Part shown: positions 3,513 to 12,142 of the stretch, piece by piece
How the letters are laid out: the number at the start of each line of letters is the position of its first letter
How positions within the stretch are numbered: position 1 is the first letter of the stretch
NCBI GenBank assembly: GCA_036374795.1
Contig: DASUTC010000275.1
Location: 1-33,926, forward strand
Direction: 5' to 3'
DNA: 33,926 nt
Origin: Herpetosiphonaceae bacterium
Lineage (GTDB): Bacteria > Chloroflexota > Chloroflexia > Chloroflexales > Kallotenuaceae
Translations under genes and position numbers: made by a program
The notes under the pieces: generated by a model
What the model saw: the letters and a program-made list of their open reading frames with translations, nothing else
The model's database searches: none
Told to the model about the DNA's origin: nothing

Positions 3513-4784
3513 CTACGGCATGGCAAGCACATGCGCTCCCAGATTATCGATCCAGGCCACATGGACCGTGCCCGACTGTGTCACCGCCAGCGATGGAGCG
3601 GTGGGATGCCCACGGCCCGCGCCGTCGTCGCTGCGTACCAGCTCCCGCGGCGGCGCAAAGGTCGCGCCGTGGTCGTCGGAGGTGGTGTACAGGATCGCGG
3701 TGTGCTCGTCGGTGCTCATCTCCCAGGCGATATGCAGCCGACCCTGCGGCCCGATCGCCAGGGCAGGCAGCGTATGCATATGCTGCTCATCGGAATTCAC
3801 GCGCACATCCGGCGTGAAGCTCCGCCCGCCGTCGACGGAGCTGGCAAGCCACAGATCGCCGCGCGTGCCGGTCCCTTCGCGGTCGTTGCGGCCATCCATC
3901 CAGGCGACATACACGCGCTCGTCGGTGCCGACCAGCGCGGGGCCGCTGATCGGGCAGGCATTCAGCCGCCACGATCCATCGGCGACCTGCACGGCCTCAC
4001 CAAAGGTCGCGCCGCCATCGTCCGACGCCAGCACGTAGATGTCGCGCAGATCATCCGTGCCCTCGTGGGTCACATTGCGGAAGGCGATCAACACCCGCTC
4101 GCCGAGGATCAGCGGATCGGGCTGGCAGCAATCGCAGACCTCGGCATCGATCGTCTGTGCCGCCGCGAACGACGCGCCACTGTCGACAGCGCGCGCCTGC
4201 CCCAGCGCGCCATCCTGCAACCAGACCATCAGCGGGCTGTGCTGCCGGTCGAAGGTCATGCGCACCATCGCCGCCTCACGCGCGTCTACCTCGCTCACCT
4301 CACGCGGAGCATCAAAGGTCCGCCCGCTGTCGGTCGACTGGCTGTACCAGATCTTGGGCTTCCCGCTGCTGCCGTGCTCGATCCAGGTTACGCCGACGCG
4401 CCCGGTCTGATCCACCGCGATCGACGGACGCTCGATCGGCAAGACCAGCGCGGGAACATCGCCGGAGGCGCGAACCGGCTCATCAAAGCCGCGCCCATCT
4501 TCCTGCGCCCGCGCCACCAGCAGCTCCTCGCCCATCCCGACGACGACATACACACGACCATCCGGCGCTGCCGTCACCGTCGCCGAGCGCGCGCCCTTGA
4601 AGGTTGTTGCCTGCGGCTCCGGTGATTGCGGCGCAGCCGACGGCGTGATAGCCGGTGCCTGGCTCGGTTGCGGAGTCTCTGCGGAGCTCGTCGATGGCGC
4701 GGGCGCAGCGCCACAGGCAACCGTCACGCACAAGCCCAGTGTAAGCAGACCATTTCGCAAGCTGCGCAGAATGAGGCGGGCCAT
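3513..4784 (-). CDS. Secreted Asp-box (BNR) beta-propeller lipoprotein
   Basis: This 423-residue exported protein begins with a lipoprotein signal: a basic start MARLILRSLRNG, a hydrophobic stretch and the lipobox VTVAC, followed by a Pro/Ser/Ala-rich linker of about 40 residues. The rest is a propeller marked by five Asp-box motifs (S-x-D-x-G-x-[TS]-[FW]): STDSGRTF, AVDSGASF, SDDGGATF, SVDGGRSF and SDDHGATF. I chose the ATG at 4784 because GGAGGG lies 6 bases upstream; a longer frame to 4850 would bury the signal peptide. Asp-box proteins include sialidases, but no sialidase FRIP motif or Arg triad is evident, so I infer an extracellular binding or structural propeller of unknown ligand. Two other Asp-box genes lie in the window (12552 and 20670). 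Confidence 0.85.
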   Translation of the reverse strand: MARLILRSLRNGLLTLGLCVTVACGAAPAPSTSSAETPQPSQAPAITPSAAPQSPEPQATTFKGARSATVTAAPDGRVYVVVGMGEELLVARAQEDGRGFDEPVRASGDVPALVLPIERPSIAVDQTGRVGVTWIEHGSSGKPKIWYSQSTDSGRTFDAPREVSEVDAREAAMVRMTFDRQHSPLMVWLQDGALGQARAVDSGASFAAAQTIDAEVCDCCQPDPLILGERVLIAFRNVTHEGTDDLRDIYVLASDDGGATFGEAVQVADGSWRLNACPISGPALVGTDERVYVAWMDGRNDREGTGTRGDLWLASSVDGGRSFTPDVRVNSDEQHMHTLPALAIGPQGRLHIAWEMSTDEHTAILYTTSDDHGATFAPPRELVRSDDGAGRGHPTAPSLAVTQSGTVHVAWIDNLGAHVLAMP

Positions 4785-5199: not shown

Positions 5200-7620
5200 A
5201 TGAGATTATCGATCAAGCCTCTCCGCCGGTTTGGAACCCTGCTGTTCGTCGCGCTGATGGGCGCTGCCCTGCTGCTGCCCGGCATGCAATCCGGCACCCA
5301 GCGCGCGCTCGCGGCCACGCCCGACGATCTCGATCGGGTGGAGCCTGCCGTTGTTGCCCGCATCACGCTGCCCGATCGCGCGGCCCTGGATGCGCTTGTC
5401 GCCACCGGAGCCGATCTTGCCGAGTATCTGCATCAATCGAGCAGCGGCCTGGATGTCGATGTGATCGCCACGCCAGCCGAGATCGAGGCGCTCCGCCAGC
5501 AGGGCTTTAACGTCACGAACACGCTGCTGACCGAGGCGGACTGGGCCGCGCGCGTGGCCGAGCGCGAGGCCGCAGTCGCAGCCGAGGAGGCCGCGCTGGC
5601 CTCGGTCGATACGCTGACGATCCTGCGCGCCGACTACTTCCAGAACGATGCGGGAAGCTTCCTCTCGGTCGAGGCCAAGACCAGCGCGGGTGCCGCCGCG
5701 ACGGTTCGCCTGACCGCCGCCTGGGATGCTGGCTCCGGCACCGCGCCCGACGCTGGCGGCACGGCCACGATGTCGCGCTTTACCGACGCCGGAGTCTACA
5801 TGTATCACCGCCTGCTGGTGCCGGTCGGCAGCCGTCCGGCTAAGGTGCAGATCACGAGCACGCAGGGCGGCGCCGCGACGGCTGCCGTGCGCGAGTGGCT
5901 CGACAGCGGCAGGCCCGGCAACCCGAAGCACCATTATGTCAAGGACTTCATCAGCCACTATATGCATCCGACCGAGGTATACGAGCGCATCGAGGCGCTG
6001 GCGCGCGAGTTCCCCGATCTGGCCGAGGTCATCGAGCTGCCGAACAAGACGAACGGCTACCGGCGCAAGGCACAGGCGACGATGGGCAGCCTGACGAGCA
6101 ACGCCGTGGTCATCAGCTCGAAGGCGTGGGGCCACGAGGGCGGCACCGCGATCACGGTCGAGTTCGCCAATCCGGGCGCGCCCAATCAGCCGCTCGCGGT
6201 CAATGTGAATGGCAGCGCGATCTCGGTGCGCCTTGCGACCAACGCATCCGGCGCGCTCGCAAGCACGGCGGCGCAGGTGGCGGCGGCGCTGAACGCGCAG
6301 GCCGGAGCGCTGGTGACGGCGCATACCTACCGTGGCAACGCCGGAGCAGGTGTGGTGCAGCCCGTGGCGGCAACGCCGCTCCGCGATTTTTTGAGCGCTC
6401 CCGCTGAGATCTCGCGCGATCCGTTCACCGTCCGTGCGATCCGCATCGGCAAGCATCGCGACGGGTCGCGCATCGGCGTGCTGGCCTACTCGCAGGAGCA
6501 CGCGCGCGAATGGGTCACGCCGCTGGTCGCGGTCGAAACCGCCGAGCGGCTGCTGCGCAACTACGCGCGCGACGGCGAGACGCGCCAGCTTCTCGACAAC
6601 CTCGACATCTTTATTATTCCCTCGGTCAATCCCGACGGCGCGCACTACAGCTTCTTCGACTACAACATGCAGCGCAAGAACATGTTCAACTACTGCGGGC
6701 CGCAGGATGCCGATCCCGGTCGTCGTAACGAGTGGGGCGTGGACAACAACCGCAACTACGGGATTGGCTCGTTGTTCGACGGCTACAGCGGCGCGTCGAC
6801 CAACTGCCGCAGCGGCACCTACGCCGGTCCCGAGGAACTCTCGGAGCCCGAAAGCCGCAACGTCATCTGGGTCGCCGAGCAGCATCCCAACATCAAGTTC
6901 TCGATGAATATCCACAGCTACGGCGGCTACTTCATGTGGGCACCCGGCGCGTACCGGCTGCCGGGCCGTGAAACGCTCGATCGCGCGGCGCTGGGCCAGG
7001 AGGCATTCTTCTGGGCCTCATCCGAGCAAATCCTGGCGTCGATCAAAGAGCATCGCGGCACGGTGATCCTGCCTGGGCGCACGGGGCCGACCGCCGATGT
7101 GCTCTACTCTGCCGCCGGTAACTCCGCCGACCACCTCTGGTACGGCAGCAACATCTTCGCCTGGAACTTCGAGGTCGGCGCGGATCGCTGGGACGCCGAG
7201 CGATCACGGTGGGAGCCGGTGGGCTTTCAGCCGTCCTTTGCCGAAGGACACGGCGAGGCGATGGAGTTTGCCAACGGCCTGATCGCCATGCTCAAGGTTG
7301 CCAAAGACTACGGCAAGGACGCGCAGCCGCCGCGATCGTGGAGCGTGCCAGGCCAGGGCAAGTACAGCGGGCCGGTCGCGCTGCGCTTCGAGACGAGCGA
7401 GCCAGCCACGATCTACTACACGCTCGATGGCAGCCGTCCGACCTTCAGGTCGCAGAAGTATAGCGCCAGCGGCATGCGCGAGGGGCCGCAGGTCCTCACG
7501 CTGACGGAGACGACCACGCTCAGGTGGTTTGCGGTCGACGCCGCTGGCAACATCGAGAACGGCTACGATCCCTACAGAGGCGAAAACTATCGCCAGGTGC
7601 GGATCGAGATCAAGCCGTAG
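5200..7620 (+). CDS. Secreted M14 zinc carboxypeptidase with CHB_HEX_C domain
   Basis: This 806-residue exported metallopeptidase removes C-terminal residues from peptides outside the cell. Residues 1-38 are a signal peptide (basic start, hydrophobic core, AxA-like end). A propeptide-like N-terminal region follows. The M14 catalytic domain shows the zinc ligands HxxE (His434, Glu437 in EHARE) and His572 (in NIHSYGG), the substrate-binding DNNRNYG (515-521) and the catalytic glutamate Glu658 in NFEVG. A block of about 100 residues (about 297-398), with no catalytic motif and an Ala-rich middle, interrupts the peptidase domain before its first zinc ligand. The C-terminus (about 716-795: IYYTLDGSRPTF ... 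WFAVDAAGN) matches the chitobiase/beta-hexosaminidase C-terminal-like fold often seen as a carbohydrate or cell-surface module. A purine-rich GGGAGCG precedes the ATG. All catalytic residues are present, so an active enzyme is likely. Confidence 0.92.
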   Translation: MRLSIKPLRRFGTLLFVALMGAALLLPGMQSGTQRALAATPDDLDRVEPAVVARITLPDRAALDALVATGADLAEYLHQSSSGLDVDVIATPAEIEALRQQGFNVTNTLLTEADWAARVAEREAAVAAEEAALASVDTLTILRADYFQNDAGSFLSVEAKTSAGAAATVRLTAAWDAGSGTAPDAGGTATMSRFTDAGVYMYHRLLVPVGSRPAKVQITSTQGGAATAAVREWLDSGRPGNPKHHYVKDFISHYMHPTEVYERIEALAREFPDLAEVIELPNKTNGYRRKAQATMGSLTSNAVVISSKAWGHEGGTAITVEFANPGAPNQPLAVNVNGSAISVRLATNASGALASTAAQVAAALNAQAGALVTAHTYRGNAGAGVVQPVAATPLRDFLSAPAEISRDPFTVRAIRIGKHRDGSRIGVLAYSQEHAREWVTPLVAVETAERLLRNYARDGETRQLLDNLDIFIIPSVNPDGAHYSFFDYNMQRKNMFNYCGPQDADPGRRNEWGVDNNRNYGIGSLFDGYSGASTNCRSGTYAGPEELSEPESRNVIWVAEQHPNIKFSMNIHSYGGYFMWAPGAYRLPGRETLDRAALGQEAFFWASSEQILASIKEHRGTVILPGRTGPTADVLYSAAGNSADHLWYGSNIFAWNFEVGADRWDAERSRWEPVGFQPSFAEGHGEAMEFANGLIAMLKVAKDYGKDAQPPRSWSVPGQGKYSGPVALRFETSEPATIYYTLDGSRPTFRSQKYSASGMREGPQVLTLTETTTLRWFAVDAAGNIENGYDPYRGENYRQVRIEIKP

Positions 7621-7748: not shown

Positions 7749-8138
7749 TTACGCATCGTTATGTGAACATAGCTCGCATTCGTCCAGGCGTGCACACTGG
7801 CACTCAAGGCCGGCTTCAAGCAGGCGCTTCATCTCCTGCACATGTGCCAGCAGCGCATCGATCTCGCGGAGCTTCTGCCGCGCCAGGACATGCCACCGCG
7901 CAGACAGCGGTGTGTCTGTCGCAAAGCCCTGCAAGAGCAGCGCAATCTCTGCGAGCGTAAAGCCTGCGCGCTGAGCCACCTTGATCGCGCCGAGGCGCTG
8001 TACCACGTCATAATCATAGCGCCGCCGCCCGCCGACACGCTTCGGCACCGGCAGCAGGCCAACCTGTTCGTAATAGCGCAGCGTGGATGGTTGCAAGCCC
8101 GCCCGCCGCGCTGCCTCGCCAATTGTCAGATCTTCCAT
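7749..8138 (-). CDS. MerR-family transcriptional regulator
   Basis: This 129-residue regulator has a MerR winged helix (residues 4-22 TIGEAARRAGLQPSTLRYY; wing 33-41 KRVGGRRRY), then a dimerisation coiled coil (about 80-110). The C-terminus carries cysteines C113, C115, C121 and C124 in the pattern CxCx5CxxC, which resembles metal- or redox-sensing MerR proteins (SoxR has CxCx5C preceded by a further Cys). I chose the ATG at 8138, giving the usual MEDLTIGEAA start with AGGCG upstream; a GTG at 8153 would add five residues. It faces the operon at 8224 across a MerR-type operator at 8163-8182, which it very probably controls. The inducer is unknown; the cysteines suggest a thiophilic metal or redox signal. 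Confidence 0.9.
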   Translation of the reverse strand: MEDLTIGEAARRAGLQPSTLRYYEQVGLLPVPKRVGGRRRYDYDVVQRLGAIKVAQRAGFTLAEIALLLQGFATDTPLSARWHVLARQKLREIDALLAHVQEMKRLLEAGLECQCARLDECELCSHNDA

Positions 8139-8159: not shown

Positions 8160-8190
8160 TTGACTTAAAGTGTACTTGAAGTTGTACGCT
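8160..8190 (+). promoter_or_regulatory. MerR-type promoter/operator for 8224 operon
   Basis: TTGACT (-35, 8160-8165) and TACGCT (-10, 8185-8190) are separated by 19 bp, the overlong spacer typical of MerR-activated promoters. An imperfect dyad lies inside it: ACTTAAAGT (8163-8171), 2-bp gap, ACTTGAAGT (8174-8182), palindromic except at one position. Geometry and half-sites match known MerR operators. Confidence 0.85.
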
Positions 8191-8223
8191 CTTGTTGATC
8201 AACGTGCAAGTGTGGAGGTTATC

Positions 8224-8535
8224 ATGAGCGGCATTCCGATTGCGTGCGACTTGTCGGCCCTGAGCGCCGAGCAGCGACAGCGACACACGGCGCTGTCCGA
8301 GCAGCTTGCCCAGGCGGTGCAGGAGGTGAGAGAGCTGCCTGACGGCTATGCGTTTCGATACACAACCAATGATGCAACGTGGATGATCGCTGCCGAATAC
8401 GTGAGCCTGGAGCGGCGCTGTTGTCCGTTCTTCGTCTTTACCCTGATGCTGGATGCCGATCGCACCGTCTGGCTTCATCTCACGGGCCACAGCGAGGTTA
8501 AGGCATTCCTGACCACGCAGATCGGAAACCAGTAA
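8224..8535 (+). CDS. Small CCPF-motif protein under MerR control
   Basis: I do not recognise a named family for this 103-residue soluble protein. It begins MSGIPIACDLSALSAEQRQRH, continues with a helical segment, and has a conserved-looking cysteine pair in LERRCCPFF (Cys66, Cys67) followed by beta-type sequence ending in LTGHSEVKAF. A third cysteine, Cys8, lies near the N-terminus. The start at 8224 is set by GGAGG 6 bases upstream; the longer frame from 8170 would overlap the promoter. It is the first gene behind a MerR operator and is followed after 9 bases by a YciI-like gene. A vicinal Cys pair beside a Cys-rich MerR suggests metal or thiol chemistry, but this is inference. Confidence 0.75.
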   Translation: MSGIPIACDLSALSAEQRQRHTALSEQLAQAVQEVRELPDGYAFRYTTNDATWMIAAEYVSLERRCCPFFVFTLMLDADRTVWLHLTGHSEVKAFLTTQIGNQ

Positions 8536-8544
8536 GGAGGCGGC

Positions 8545-8844
8545 ATGAAAACCTTTCTGGTTATCTATCGTCCGGGGGAGGCCTGGATTGTAGGCAGGCC
8601 CGTCTCGGAGCAGCCGTTAGCAGCCCACGGTCGATATTTGCTGCGCCTGTATCAGGCTGGCACGCTGCGCTTTGCAGGGCCGTTTGAAGATGACGCTGGC
8701 GGCGCTACGGTGATCGAGGCACCAGGTGAAGCAGAAGCGCACACGATCGCCAGTCATGATCCGGCAGTTGTTGATCGGATCTTCGTGTATGAGCTGCACC
8801 CGTGGCGGCTTGTGGACTGGGAGCGGCATACCCGTGCTGCATAA
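8545..8844 (+). CDS. YciI-like (YCII domain) protein
   Basis: This 99-residue protein has the ferredoxin-like YCII fold: an opening strand MKTFLVIYRPG, a central AAHGRYLLRLYQAGTLRFAGPF with the conserved His-x-x-Tyr-type helix and G-P turn, then ATVIEAPGEAEAHTIASHDPAV. YCII proteins are small dimeric putative enzymes or ligand binders whose reactions are mostly unknown. AAGGAGG sits 6 bases before the ATG and overlaps the end of the preceding gene, so the two form one MerR-controlled operon. It ends 34 bases before a 12-bp hairpin. Confidence 0.85.
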   Translation: MKTFLVIYRPGEAWIVGRPVSEQPLAAHGRYLLRLYQAGTLRFAGPFEDDAGGATVIEAPGEAEAHTIASHDPAVVDRIFVYELHPWRLVDWERHTRAA

Positions 8845-8878: not shown

Positions 8879-8912
8879 GGGTGCCATGCCGGGTGCCTTT
8901 GGCATGGCACCC
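8879..8912. terminator. Hairpin terminator between yciI-like and SBP genes
   Basis: A 12-bp perfect stem (8879-8890 with 8901-8912) and a 10-base loop lie between convergent genes. On the plus strand it is followed by the T-rich heptamer tract (GGTTCTTGG...), not a plain U run. Confidence 0.7.
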
Positions 8913-8944: not shown

Positions 8945-10210
8945 CTAGGGCTTGAAAAATCCCTGGGTGCTGGCCTTAGCCGCCGTGATCGCCTCCTCGA
9001 CCGTCGCCTGACCATAAAAGGCGCGCTCCAGCTCGTTGTTGACCGCCGTCTCGATGTCCTCCCAGGTGTCCATCGTCGGCACGGCGCGGATCGCGGGGAT
9101 GATGTCGAGGAAGACCCGGCTGCGCTGCGGCTTTGCGCTCGGCTCAAGGAACGCCTCCGACTGTGCCACTGCACGCAGCGACGGCACGGTTCGTCCGGTT
9201 TTGGCGATGATCGTCTGGCCCTCGGCGGAGTTGGCAAACTCGATGAATGTCCAGGCCGCGTCTTTGTTTTGGGTTTTCGCGGCCATGCAGTACGCATCGG
9301 CGTGGAGAATCCCGGCGCGCTGCTTGCCCTGGGGCAGCGGCGCAACATCCCAGTCGAACGCCTCGATCTCGCGGAGCGTCGGCACCGCGCGGCGGCTATC
9401 GAAGAACATCGCGGTTCGTCCGTTCTGGAAGCGGCTCTCGCTGTCCTCGGCCTGCTCCTGCACGGCATCCGGCACGACATGATGCTTGGTCTGAAGCTCG
9501 ACAAACCACTGCATCGCGGCCTGCGCCTCAGGCGTGTCCAGCGCAAGCTGCGCCGGTTTGGCGGCGGGCGTGACCAGCTCTCCGCCGTTTTGCCACACAA
9601 ACGGCGCGAGCCGAATCAGCGACGGCTCGATGCCCGCGCCGTACTGATCGATCTGCCCGTCGGCGTTGGTATCCTTCGTCAGCGCCCTGGCCGTAGTCAA
9701 GAACTCCTCCCAGGTCCAGCTATCGCCGGGGTACGCCACGCCCGCCTGGTCGAAGAGCTGCTTGTTGTAGTAGACGACCAGGCTCGACACGTTTTGCGGG
9801 ATGCACATCAGCGCGCCGTTGTAGCGGAAGGGCGCGATCGTTTCGGGATAAAAATCGGCCTCGTCGATCACGGCGCTGCGCTCAAGATACGGTCCCAGCG
9901 GCTCGATCACCTGCTTGGCGGCAAAGCTGCCCATGCGCCGGTAGTTGAGCAGAACAATATCGGCTGGCTGTCCGGCGGCGAAATCGGCAGCCAGCCGCGT
10001 GCGGTACTCATTCTGGCCTGGGATATGCGTAATCTGCACGTCGATGCTTGGCTGCTTTTGCTTGAACGCGCTGACCAGGCTCTCATACGCTGCTTTCTCG
10101 GCGGGATCGCCCCAGACCATAAACGAAACCGGCTTCGAGGCCGCAGCGGGAGCGCCGCAGGCGGTCAGCACCATCACCAGTCCGACGACGAGCAGGACGA
10201 CGTTGCGCAC
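8945..10210 (-). CDS. ABC sugar-binding lipoprotein (family 1)
   Basis: This 421-residue extracellular solute-binding protein of the MalE/UgpB type captures a sugar or oligosaccharide for the two permeases encoded upstream. I chose the GTG at 10210 because AAGGAG lies 7 bases before it. This gives a compact lipoprotein signal (MRNVVLLVVGLVMVLTAC, lipobox LTAC, Cys18). An in-frame ATG at 10264 would add 18 residues ahead of the signal. Family hallmarks are visible: VSFMVWGDPAEK near the N-terminus, PADIVLLNYRRMGSFAAKQVIEPL, VYYNKQLFDQAGVAYP...TWEEF, and a C-terminal NNELERAFYGQATVEEAI. It is the last gene of a three-gene transport operon. The sugar cannot be read from the sequence. Confidence 0.9.
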   Translation of the reverse strand: MRNVVLLVVGLVMVLTACGAPAAASKPVSFMVWGDPAEKAAYESLVSAFKQKQPSIDVQITHIPGQNEYRTRLAADFAAGQPADIVLLNYRRMGSFAAKQVIEPLGPYLERSAVIDEADFYPETIAPFRYNGALMCIPQNVSSLVVYYNKQLFDQAGVAYPGDSWTWEEFLTTARALTKDTNADGQIDQYGAGIEPSLIRLAPFVWQNGGELVTPAAKPAQLALDTPEAQAAMQWFVELQTKHHVVPDAVQEQAEDSESRFQNGRTAMFFDSRRAVPTLREIEAFDWDVAPLPQGKQRAGILHADAYCMAAKTQNKDAAWTFIEFANSAEGQTIIAKTGRTVPSLRAVAQSEAFLEPSAKPQRSRVFLDIIPAIRAVPTMDTWEDIETAVNNELERAFYGQATVEEAITAAKASTQGFFKP

Positions 10211-10274
10211 GTTGATCTCCTTCAGCTTGATCCGCAGCAGCGCAGTGCCGCGAATGCGTGTCATGTAGCGCCGG

Positions 10275-11108
10275 TCAGCGTCCGCCGAAGCCGGTCAGCC
10301 GTCCGTCCGGCCAGAAGTAGCGCTGCGTCAGCAGAAACAGCAGCACCACCGGCCCGACCATCACGACCGAGGCCGCCATCAGCAGCGGCCAGTTCGTACG
10401 ATCCATCTGCTGCAAGAACTGAAGCCCGACCGGCAGCGTGTAGTAGCGCTGCGTTTTGAGATACAGCAGCGGATTGATAAAATCGCTCCAGTAGGAGACA
10501 AAGCTCAGCACGCTGACGGCGATGATCGTCGATCGAGCCAGGGGCATAGCGATCGTGGCCCAGGTGCGGAGCACGCCCGCGCCGTCGATTCGCGCCGAGG
10601 CGATCAGCTCCTGCGGCAGGCGGCGGAACGTCCAGTAGAACAGCAGCACAAACAGCGGGCTGGTGCCCATCAAGGCCGGAGCGATCAGCGCCCAGAGCGT
10701 GTCGGTCAGCAGCAGATACGAAAACAGCACATAGCGCGTCAGCCACAGCGCCGTCGACGGCACCAGCAGCAGCGCCGAGGTGAAGACGACCAGCGTGCGC
10801 TGCCAGCGCGCGTGAAGCTGCGCCAGCGCAAAGCCCGCCCATGAAGCCGTGACGAGCGTGATCGGCACCGCGAGCGCCACGACGATCGCCGAGTTGGCGA
10901 TGTAGCGACCGAGCGGGACAAGCTGGAAGATCGTTCGGTAGTTGCCCCAGGTCATCACCGGCGGGAGCCACTCGATCGTGCGCGGCGGCGGAAGGCCCGG
11001 CTGTCGCAGCGAGGCCGTCAGCACCAGCAGCAGCGGCAGCACAAACAGCGCCGCGACCGTCAGCGCTACAAGTTGCCGGAGTTTCGAGTTCAACGTTTCA
11101 AGTTTCAT
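10275..11108 (-). CDS. ABC sugar permease, MalG/AraQ type
   Basis: This is the second inner-membrane permease of the importer, about 277 residues with six predicted helices. The cytoplasmic EAA loop that contacts the ATPase reads ELIASARIDGAG...WATIAMPLAR (EAA-x3-G-x9-I-x-L/MP pattern), fixing the family. I used the ATG at 11108; an upstream in-frame TTG at 11129 would add seven residues. Neither has a visible Shine-Dalgarno, because the start region is a heptamer repeat array (11081-11143). The first 15 or so residues are translated repeat, visible as a 7-residue period (KPETVNM/KLETLNS/KLRQ). It sits 62 bases after permease 1 and 64 bases before the binding protein. No ATPase gene is in the operon. 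Confidence 0.9.
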   Translation of the reverse strand: MKLETLNSKLRQLVALTVAALFVLPLLLVLTASLRQPGLPPPRTIEWLPPVMTWGNYRTIFQLVPLGRYIANSAIVVALAVPITLVTASWAGFALAQLHARWQRTLVVFTSALLLVPSTALWLTRYVLFSYLLLTDTLWALIAPALMGTSPLFVLLFYWTFRRLPQELIASARIDGAGVLRTWATIAMPLARSTIIAVSVLSFVSYWSDFINPLLYLKTQRYYTLPVGLQFLQQMDRTNWPLLMAASVVMVGPVVLLFLLTQRYFWPDGRLTGFGGR

Positions 11109-11162
11109 GTTCACGGTTTCAGGTTTCAAGTTCAGCGTTTCCTGTCCGGTTCTTGGTTCTTG
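11081..11162. repeat. GTTYNNN heptamer array C (nine phased units)
   Basis: This is the most regular copy: nine consecutive units in exact 7-base register from 11081 to 11143, nearly all GTTTCAN or GTTCANN. After a 5-base break come two GTTCTTG units (11149-11162). It starts inside the N-terminal codons of the permease gene and ends 8 bases from the stop of the other permease gene (11171). Confidence 0.9.
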
Positions 11163-11170
11163 GCTCTCCG

Positions 11171-12142
11171 TCAGTAGTCATCCGCGTAGCCCCAGCCGCC
11201 CGCGACGAAATAGACCAGCAGCACCAGCAGCGCCAGACCCAGGAAAAAGAGCAGCATCATCGCCGATCCCATGCCCACGCGAAAGCGCTCAAACGCCTCG
11301 TCGAAGATCAGCAGCGGCATAAAGAGCGTCGAGAAGTACGGCCCGCCGTCGGTCATCAGATACGCGGGCGTGAACGTGCTCTGCGCGCTCAGCGTGATGT
11401 CGCGGATCGTCAGCAGCAGCAGCCAGGGCGCGAGCAGCGGCAGCGTAATCAGGCGGAACATCTGCCAGCGGCTACCGCCGTCGATCGCGGCGCTGGCGTA
11501 ATAGTCCTCAGGAATATCGTGCAGCCCCGCCAGGAGCACGACAAAGCCCTCGCCGATCTGAAACAGCGACATCAGCACGATCGCCAGCTTGGCCGTGCCG
11601 GGCTGCACCAGCCATGCAGGCGTGGGCAGGCCCAAGGTGCCCAGCAGCAGGTTAAGCGGGCCATAGATCGGGTTGAAGATCCACAGCCAGATCAGCGCAT
11701 ACGCCACGTCGGGGATGATCGTCGGTAGATAGACCGCCGCACGGTAGATGCCAACACCGCGCCGACTCTGATGGAGCAGCAGCGCCAGCAGCAGCGCGCC
11801 AAGCATCCGCAGCGGCACCGCCAGGACGATAAAGTACAGCGAGTTGCGGACCGCAATCCAGAAAAGCGGATTCGTTAATATTTCGCTAAAATTTTGCAGA
11901 CCGACCCAGATCGGCGGTGAGAGCGCGTCGTACTCCGTGAGCGCAAGCACAAACGTCAGCAGCGCGGGGACGGCGATCAGCAGGGTTGCGCCCACCAGAT
12001 ACGGCAAGAGCAGCGTACGCAGCGCTCGCTGGTAGCCACGGTTCGGGCGGTGTGGAAACCCTGCGCGCCTGAGTGCGGTAGCAGTGGGCGGAGACGCTGC
12101 GGATGTGGTGACGGACTCGTGATCCAATGATCGCTCGCTCAA
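11171..12142 (-). CDS. ABC sugar permease, MalF/UgpA type
   Basis: This first permease of the sugar importer has 323 residues. An approximately 40-residue polar N-terminal tail precedes six transmembrane segments (first at about LLLPYLVGATLLIAVPALLTF). The EAA loop reads DYYASAAIDGGSRWQMFRLITLPLL, the standard ATPase-docking motif. The only in-frame start near the N-terminus is TTG at 12142 (a TAG precedes it) or a TTG five codons on; no clear Shine-Dalgarno is visible, so the start is uncertain. It leads the operon. The matching ATPase is absent and is presumably a shared MsmK/UgpC-type protein encoded elsewhere (inference from how such systems work in other bacteria). Confidence 0.9.
   Translation of the reverse strand: MSERSLDHESVTTSAASPPTATALRRAGFPHRPNRGYQRALRTLLLPYLVGATLLIAVPALLTFVLALTEYDALSPPIWVGLQNFSEILTNPLFWIAVRNSLYFIVLAVPLRMLGALLLALLLHQSRRGVGIYRAAVYLPTIIPDVAYALIWLWIFNPIYGPLNLLLGTLGLPTPAWLVQPGTAKLAIVLMSLFQIGEGFVVLLAGLHDIPEDYYASAAIDGGSRWQMFRLITLPLLAPWLLLLTIRDITLSAQSTFTPAYLMTDGGPYFSTLFMPLLIFDEAFERFRVGMGSAMMLLFFLGLALLVLLVYFVAGGWGYADDY

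Follow-up and report, generated by a model that had tools for sequence, protein, structure and literature searches.

A MerR-type switch with three conserved cysteines and an unclassified cysteine-triad protein define a probable soft-metal(loid) response in Chloroflexota

Background

Two described branches of the MerR family come closest to the regulator considered here. SoxR (TIGR01950) holds its iron-sulfur cluster with four cysteines in the arrangement CxxCxCx5C, and carries a conserved tryptophan on the dimer helix. The MerR of mer operons (TIGR02051) has a cysteine at position C82, and its cysteine spacing is wider than CxCx5C. Organomercurial lyase, MerB, uses a Cys/Cys/Asp site, and the sensing of trivalent arsenicals is usually ascribed to ArsR repressors. 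Three-thiolate arsenic proteins are found among ArsD and ArsR; PMC11212059 describes AfArsR as binding As(III) by three cysteines on one chain.

We describe a locus from a Herpetosiphonaceae bacterium of the Chloroflexota, where a MerR protein faces a small operon encoding a protein with a CCPF motif and a YciI-like protein. The window is the whole analysed stretch of DNA, 33,926 nucleotides in length; Table 1 collects the features of the locus. The switch is of a known kind, the MerR type; its proposed effector, the CCPF protein, is an unclassified domain.

Table 1. Features of the merR-CCPF locus (window positions)
Feature	Position	Strand	Basis
merR, regulator of the MerR family, 129 aa, 3-Cys (CxCx5C) clade	7749..8138	-	Pfam, NCBIfam, tree
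MerR C-terminal motif C113-x-C115-x5-C121-xx-C124	7767..7802	-	alignment of family
MerR-type promoter of the CCPF operon	8160..8190	+	read directly; conserved in 23/24 homologous loci
Operator dyad ACTTAAAGT-GT-ACTTGAAGT	8163..8182	.	9-2-9, 8/9 pairs
Shine-Dalgarno GGAGG of the CCPF gene	8214..8218	+	read directly
CCPF gene, 103 aa, unclassified family, proposed effector	8224..8535	+	model, profile searches
Codon of C8, first of the three CCPF triad cysteines, invariant	8245..8247	+	76/76 members
Codons E63-R-R-C66-C67, Glu and vicinal Cys pair, end of helix 50-66	8410..8424	+	family alignment, model
Shine-Dalgarno GGAGG for the YciI-like gene, abutting the CCPF stop codon	8536..8540	+	read directly
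YciI-like gene, second gene of the operon	8545..8844	+	Pfam YCII 41.2 bits, cut-off 24
Hairpin 3' of the operon, stem of 15 pairs with a 4-nt loop, candidate terminator, no clean U run	8879..8912	+	

Results and discussion

The promoter and its operator

The -35 element TTGACT (8160-8165) and the -10 element TACGCT (8185-8190), both read directly, are separated by a spacer of 19 bp (8166-8184), and the divergent merR gene lies to the left on the opposite strand after a gap of 21 bp. This is the arrangement expected of MerR targets, with a dyad inside a 19-20 bp promoter spacer, and it bears out the original prediction of a MerR operator with a 9-2-9 dyad. The symmetric pattern ACTTNAAGTNNACTTNAAGT, searched with up to two mismatches, has a single match in the 7.75-Mb genome, namely the operator itself with no mismatch; by chance 0.18 sites would be expected at this tolerance and 9e-5 exact ones. 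When the 370-bp region was shuffled, the joint score of promoter and dyad was matched in 1% of the shuffles. The strongest evidence that the promoter is real is its phylogenetic conservation: the element upstream of merR is kept in 23 of 24 homologous loci drawn from three phyla (Chloroflexota, Acidobacteriota and, on plasmids, Bacillota), which share a TTGACTT[A/C]AAGT-NN-ACTT[T/G]AA-like dyad, a spacer of 19-20 bp and a -10 of the TAnnnT type. The remaining locus (L064) has CAGACT instead, and some dyad arms are degenerate among the 24. A generic sigma-70 scan found no promoter at 8160-8190 because it admits spacers of 16-18 bp only, and we consequently rejected this miss as evidence against the promoter; a generic repeat search also missed the dyad, probably owing to the mismatch inside its short arms.

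A clade of MerR proteins with three conserved cysteines

The window MerR scores above all the Pfam cut-offs of its family (MerR_1, 74.3 bits against 21.6, 8e-21; MerR, 53.9 against 28.2; MerR-DNA-bind, 46.1 against 25.4, 8e-12), which assigns it to the winged HTH proteins of the MerR family. Its best match in NCBIfam is SoxR, at 82 bits below the cut-off of 116.9; the other MerR equivalogs are likewise below their cut-offs, with CueR, ZntR and CadR-PbrR at 65.4, 51 and 46.6 bits against 147.4, 167.95 and 151.45, and the mercury MerR model at 68.5 against 150.85. All 21 relatives that were aligned keep C113, C115 and C121, which correspond to C122, C124 and C130 of SoxR, while the position of the first cluster cysteine of SoxR is taken by G110 in the window protein and lacks the cysteine in all 21. 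The four C-terminal cysteines (CxCx5CxxC) reported earlier are indeed there in the window protein, but the fourth, C124, is not conserved in the family. In the dimer-helix region that provides a mercury ligand in mer regulators there is no cysteine in the window MerR and none conserved among the 21 relatives.

In a maximum-likelihood tree the 3-Cys MerRs form a clade of 30 (support 98/95) apart from the 4-Cys SoxRs (100/97), by which they are to be regarded as distinct from, but related to, SoxR. With SoxR they have in common the MerR fold, the three aligned cysteines at CxCx5C spacing, the conserved dimer-helix tryptophan and a dyad in an over-long spacer; they differ from it not only in the cysteine that they all lack but also in having CCPF, thioredoxin or small membrane proteins rich in Cys as neighbors. 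Because the first SoxR cysteine is missing in every relative and the clade is separate, a SoxR-type 2Fe-2S cluster is unlikely in these proteins, and direct thiol binding or modification would be the natural alternative. The likeness to the MerR of mer operons lies in three thiols in the C-terminal region, as expected for a soft metal, in the 19-bp spacer operator, and in the MerF/MerE-like or alkylmercury lyase genes that some relatives adjoin; in contrast, the window MerR has no cysteine at the C82 position, its motif is CxCx5C, and its operon contains neither merA nor merT. No close paralogue of the window MerR was found in its genome, and hence it looks like a dedicated regulator of a single operon. 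The open-licence literature that we searched yielded no description of a CxCx5C MerR, which is no proof of absence.

The CCPF family: a cysteine triad on a predicted fold with no clear relative found

The protein encoded by the first gene of the operon could not be assigned by the original prediction, and profile searches agree: no Pfam, NCBIfam or PHROG model matches it, and none of 17 family members matches Pfam or NCBIfam, the ArsD, HMA/MerP and MerB models included. A search with one composed, consensus-like query contributed relatives, of which only the natural proteins were used, after their homology had been re-tested with a profile of natural CCPF members. Across 80 natural members C8 is found in 76/76 (those having a residue at that position), C66 in 80/80, C67 in 78/80, E63 in 76/80 and G41 in 78/78; the window protein has all of these together with an ELPDGYAF-like segment, the features by which we define the family. 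The vicinal pair from which the motif C66-C67-P-F takes its name had been noticed earlier; C8 had been missed, and on the family alignment the signature is a cysteine triad plus a glutamate and not merely a pair.

An AlphaFold2 model (pLDDT 89, pTM 0.80) predicts an alpha-beta-beta-alpha-beta-beta-alpha arrangement with C66-C67 at the end of the middle helix. Among solved structures we found no clear relative of this model: Foldseek gave no match at E<=0.001, the best (E 0.045) being to a designed protein, and the best VIA-align score (Z 6.6), to the ArgR C-terminal domain, is tied with I-DmoI and may reflect only a common arrangement. A sequence search of the PDB gave chance-level matches only, no CCPF match was found in phages, and the open-licence literature searched contains no description of a CCPF-type protein that we could find, which is no proof of novelty. 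Like the three-thiolate arsenic proteins of the ArsD and ArsR type, CCPF has three conserved cysteines, including a vicinal pair, and occurs in ars operons; it differs in having no match to the ArsD model or any other in Pfam, and the fold searches with its model yielded no clear structural relative.

Two variants of the domain were noted. One locus (L089, G404:C252, about 3648-4454) encodes two tandem CCPF domains in a single open frame of ~268 aa, and a CCPF-like protein of the Bacteroidota (L014, 4431-5285) starts like a lipoprotein, contains an additional Cys-rich segment and is possibly exported.

Recurring gene neighborhoods of CCPF

The family is present in 38 of 400 Chloroflexota genomes (about 10% of those sampled), in 13 of 199 from the phylum Acidobacteriota, and altogether in at least five phyla besides Chloroflexota, a scattered occurrence of the sort usual for accessory resistance genes. 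In 16 of the 27 strong Chloroflexota loci a 3-Cys MerR gene adjoins CCPF, mostly divergently, against 0.02 expected; ArsM is found in 4 of the 27, ArsR in 3 and YnfA in 3. None of the linked genes sought was present in 7 of these 27 loci and in 10 of 13 Acidobacteriota loci. The co-occurrence of CCPF with MerR holds for a majority of the strong Chloroflexota loci, but the finding named at the outset as contrary, CCPF homologues lacking a MerR neighbor, is in part observed: some are located in ars operons beside ArsR or ArsM instead; as this exchanges one thiol-metalloid regulator for another, it strengthens the link to metals.

The more elaborate neighborhoods are of several kinds. Chloroflexota have CCPF-ArsR-ArsM operons in which ArsM scores above its curated cut-off. 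On Bacillota plasmids the 3-Cys MerR and CCPF are joined by a MerF-like membrane protein, an ACR3/BASS transporter or both, and two Adhaeribacter plasmids carry an operon of the order ArsR-ArsN2-ArsM-phosphoesterase-ACR3-CCPF-YnfA. TlpA-like thioredoxins and CcdA accompany CCPF in some loci. The methyltransferases of three loci (L004, L074 and L088), which had at first clustered with ArsM, are generic by sequence and were removed. At the level of whole genomes ArsM is encoded in 33 of the 38 with CCPF and in 222 of the 362 others (p = 0.0013, in a test that ignores phylogeny and genome size). The window's operon itself encodes no exporter, reductase or methylase, and the genome has its own ArsM gene on another contig. 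The earlier observation that the usual metal exporter or reductase is missing is accordingly true of this locus, but not of its relatives, which adjoin ACR3/BASS, MerF/MerE-like and YnfA membrane proteins.

In Mycobacterium, Rhodococcus and Streptomyces the CCPF domain is fused to the C-terminus of MerR proteins, as a ten-protein search against the family profile indicated (E 3e-9 to 7e-16 for the C-terminal extension). MerF-like, BASS or YnfA genes follow such fusions, some of which are surrounded by arsC, arsM, arsO or alkylmercury lyase genes. These actinobacterial 'heavy metal-responsive' regulators share the CCPF domain with our locus but belong to another MerR lineage, whereas in the window CCPF has a gene of its own, under the control of a 3-Cys MerR. 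In the tree, the fused MerRs and those adjacent to CCPF in Rhizobium, Nitratireductor and Mycobacterium branderi fall on other MerR branches, implying several independent pairings of CCPF with thiol-metal regulators. As a matter of annotation, the proteins at loci L174-L178, L180 and L181 on actinobacterial plasmids are labelled only as MerR or heavy metal-responsive and bear the C-terminal CCPF domain.

Two further kinds of neighbors were observed. YnfA (UPF0060) repeatedly adjoins CCPF (L018, 5295-5621; L162, 5318-5647; L178, 4279-4608; L180, 4329-4661; and others), and from this recurrence it may act on the same substrate; we found no mention of YnfA together with arsenic and an ars operon in the open-licence literature searched. 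In Acidobacteriota, genes for proteins of the DinB superfamily, relatives of thiol-S-transferases, separate MerR from CCPF, and in Streptomyces such a gene lies close to the fusion (L010, L013, L176).

Second gene of the operon and flanking regions

The YciI-like protein scores above the Pfam gathering threshold for YCII, in agreement with its earlier recognition. As part of a conserved unit with CCPF it does not hold: YciI accompanies CCPF only in the window and was absent from the other CCPF loci examined, and its relatives on plasmids are few. We accordingly rejected it as a core of the system and consider it a lineage-specific addition to the operon. Translations inspected by eye show a secreted metallocarboxypeptidase-like protein in the upstream flank (5200-7620) and, in the downstream flank (8945-12142), a set of genes on the opposite strand that resembles a sugar ABC transporter; both flanks look unrelated.

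Other targets of the 3-Cys MerR clade

Members of the clade without CCPF face thioredoxin genes in L145, L146, L149, L151 and Gemmatirosa; one adjoins an ArsM gene (L144) and one a small Cys-rich membrane protein (L160). Most of the scanned loci of this kind have the same kind of operator. The common theme of the targets is thiols and soft metal(loid)s. The divergent thioredoxin genes (L145, L146, L149, L151 and L182, mostly with such an operator) separately suggest an undescribed regulator of thioredoxin in Chloroflexota and Gemmatimonadota.

Proposed function and alternative explanations

Based on these observations we propose that the locus is a self-contained, one-operon sensor and binder of a soft metal(loid), such as As(III), organoarsenicals or Hg, a reading we regard as probable though far from certain. 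A MerR dimer bound at the dyad, within the over-long 19-bp spacer, would keep the promoter off until C113, C115 and C121 capture a thiol-seeking agent such as As(III), Hg(II) or a trivalent organoarsenical. The loaded MerR is then expected to untwist the DNA and realign the 19-bp promoter, allowing RNA polymerase to transcribe CCPF and yciI. CCPF might in turn act as a buffer or chaperone, binding the same agent through the thiolates of C8, C66 and C67 with E63 close by, and could hand it to detoxification enzymes made elsewhere, for example the ArsM of the same genome, or back to the sensor. As to the ligand, arsenicals are favored by the ArsM, ArsR, ACR3 and ArsN2 neighbors and by the co-occurrence with ArsM, and mercury by the MerF/MerE-like and alkylmercury lyase neighbors, bearing in mind that genome context is correlation. 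More specifically, we tentatively suggest, as a possibility that we hold to be less than even, that the 3-Cys SoxR-related MerRs sense trivalent arsenicals and that CCPF is a new three-thiolate metalloid-binding module, deployed alone, in ars operons and in fusion to unrelated MerRs.

A disulfide or electrophile stress switch, with the MerR cysteines oxidised or alkylated rather than loaded with metal and CCPF serving as a small, thioredoxin-partner-like redox protein through a C66-C67 vicinal disulfide, is a rather unlikely alternative that nonetheless draws on several of the contexts above: the thioredoxin genes faced by the same clade in several Chloroflexota and Gemmatirosa, the TlpA-like thioredoxins and CcdA that sit with CCPF in some loci, and the relatedness of the clade to SoxR. 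Indeed, thioredoxin as another target of this clade fits a general thiol-stress signal equally well. However, it fails to separate the two readings because arsenic attacks thioredoxin too, and metal(loid)s better account for the frequent linkage to genes for ArsM, ArsR, ACR3, ArsN2, MerF-like proteins and alkylmercury lyase. The conservation of E63 together with the three cysteines, and the ArsM and alkylmercury lyase family genes among the neighbors, could also be accommodated if CCPF were an enzyme acting on organometal(loid)s with a Cys/Cys/Glu site, in the manner of the Cys/Cys/Asp site of MerB, and not a passive binder. This we consider improbable, as neither Pfam nor NCBIfam gives CCPF a sequence match to MerB, and its fusion to a MerR DNA-binding domain suits ligand binding more than catalysis. 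A [2Fe-2S] redox sensor, that is, a SoxR with a non-cysteine fourth ligand or one employing C124 of the window protein, would agree with the top NCBIfam score, with the three of four SoxR cluster cysteines that align, and with an operator resembling the SoxR box; yet that score is below its cut-off, the first cluster cysteine is missing throughout the aligned members, C124 is not conserved, and the clade is well separated from the 4-Cys SoxRs, so that we judge it very improbable.

The soft-metal(loid) reading agrees with the suggestion, made from the window alone, of a distinct metal or thiol-stress response, toward which the genome context across many phyla now points; taken as a whole that initial interpretation was largely right and is supported in part.

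Implications

The CCPF protein is probably an overlooked part of the bacterial handling of thiol-binding poisons such as arsenic or mercury: an unclassified domain, repeatedly linked to arsenic and mercury genes, whose cysteine triad is nearly invariant over some 80 members. If this is confirmed, ars and mer clusters would have a missing component to be named, and the design of arsenic biosensors would gain a sensor of the activator type. Furthermore, a branch of the MerR family related to SoxR would be seen to sense with three bare thiols where SoxR employs a four-cysteine iron-sulfur cluster.
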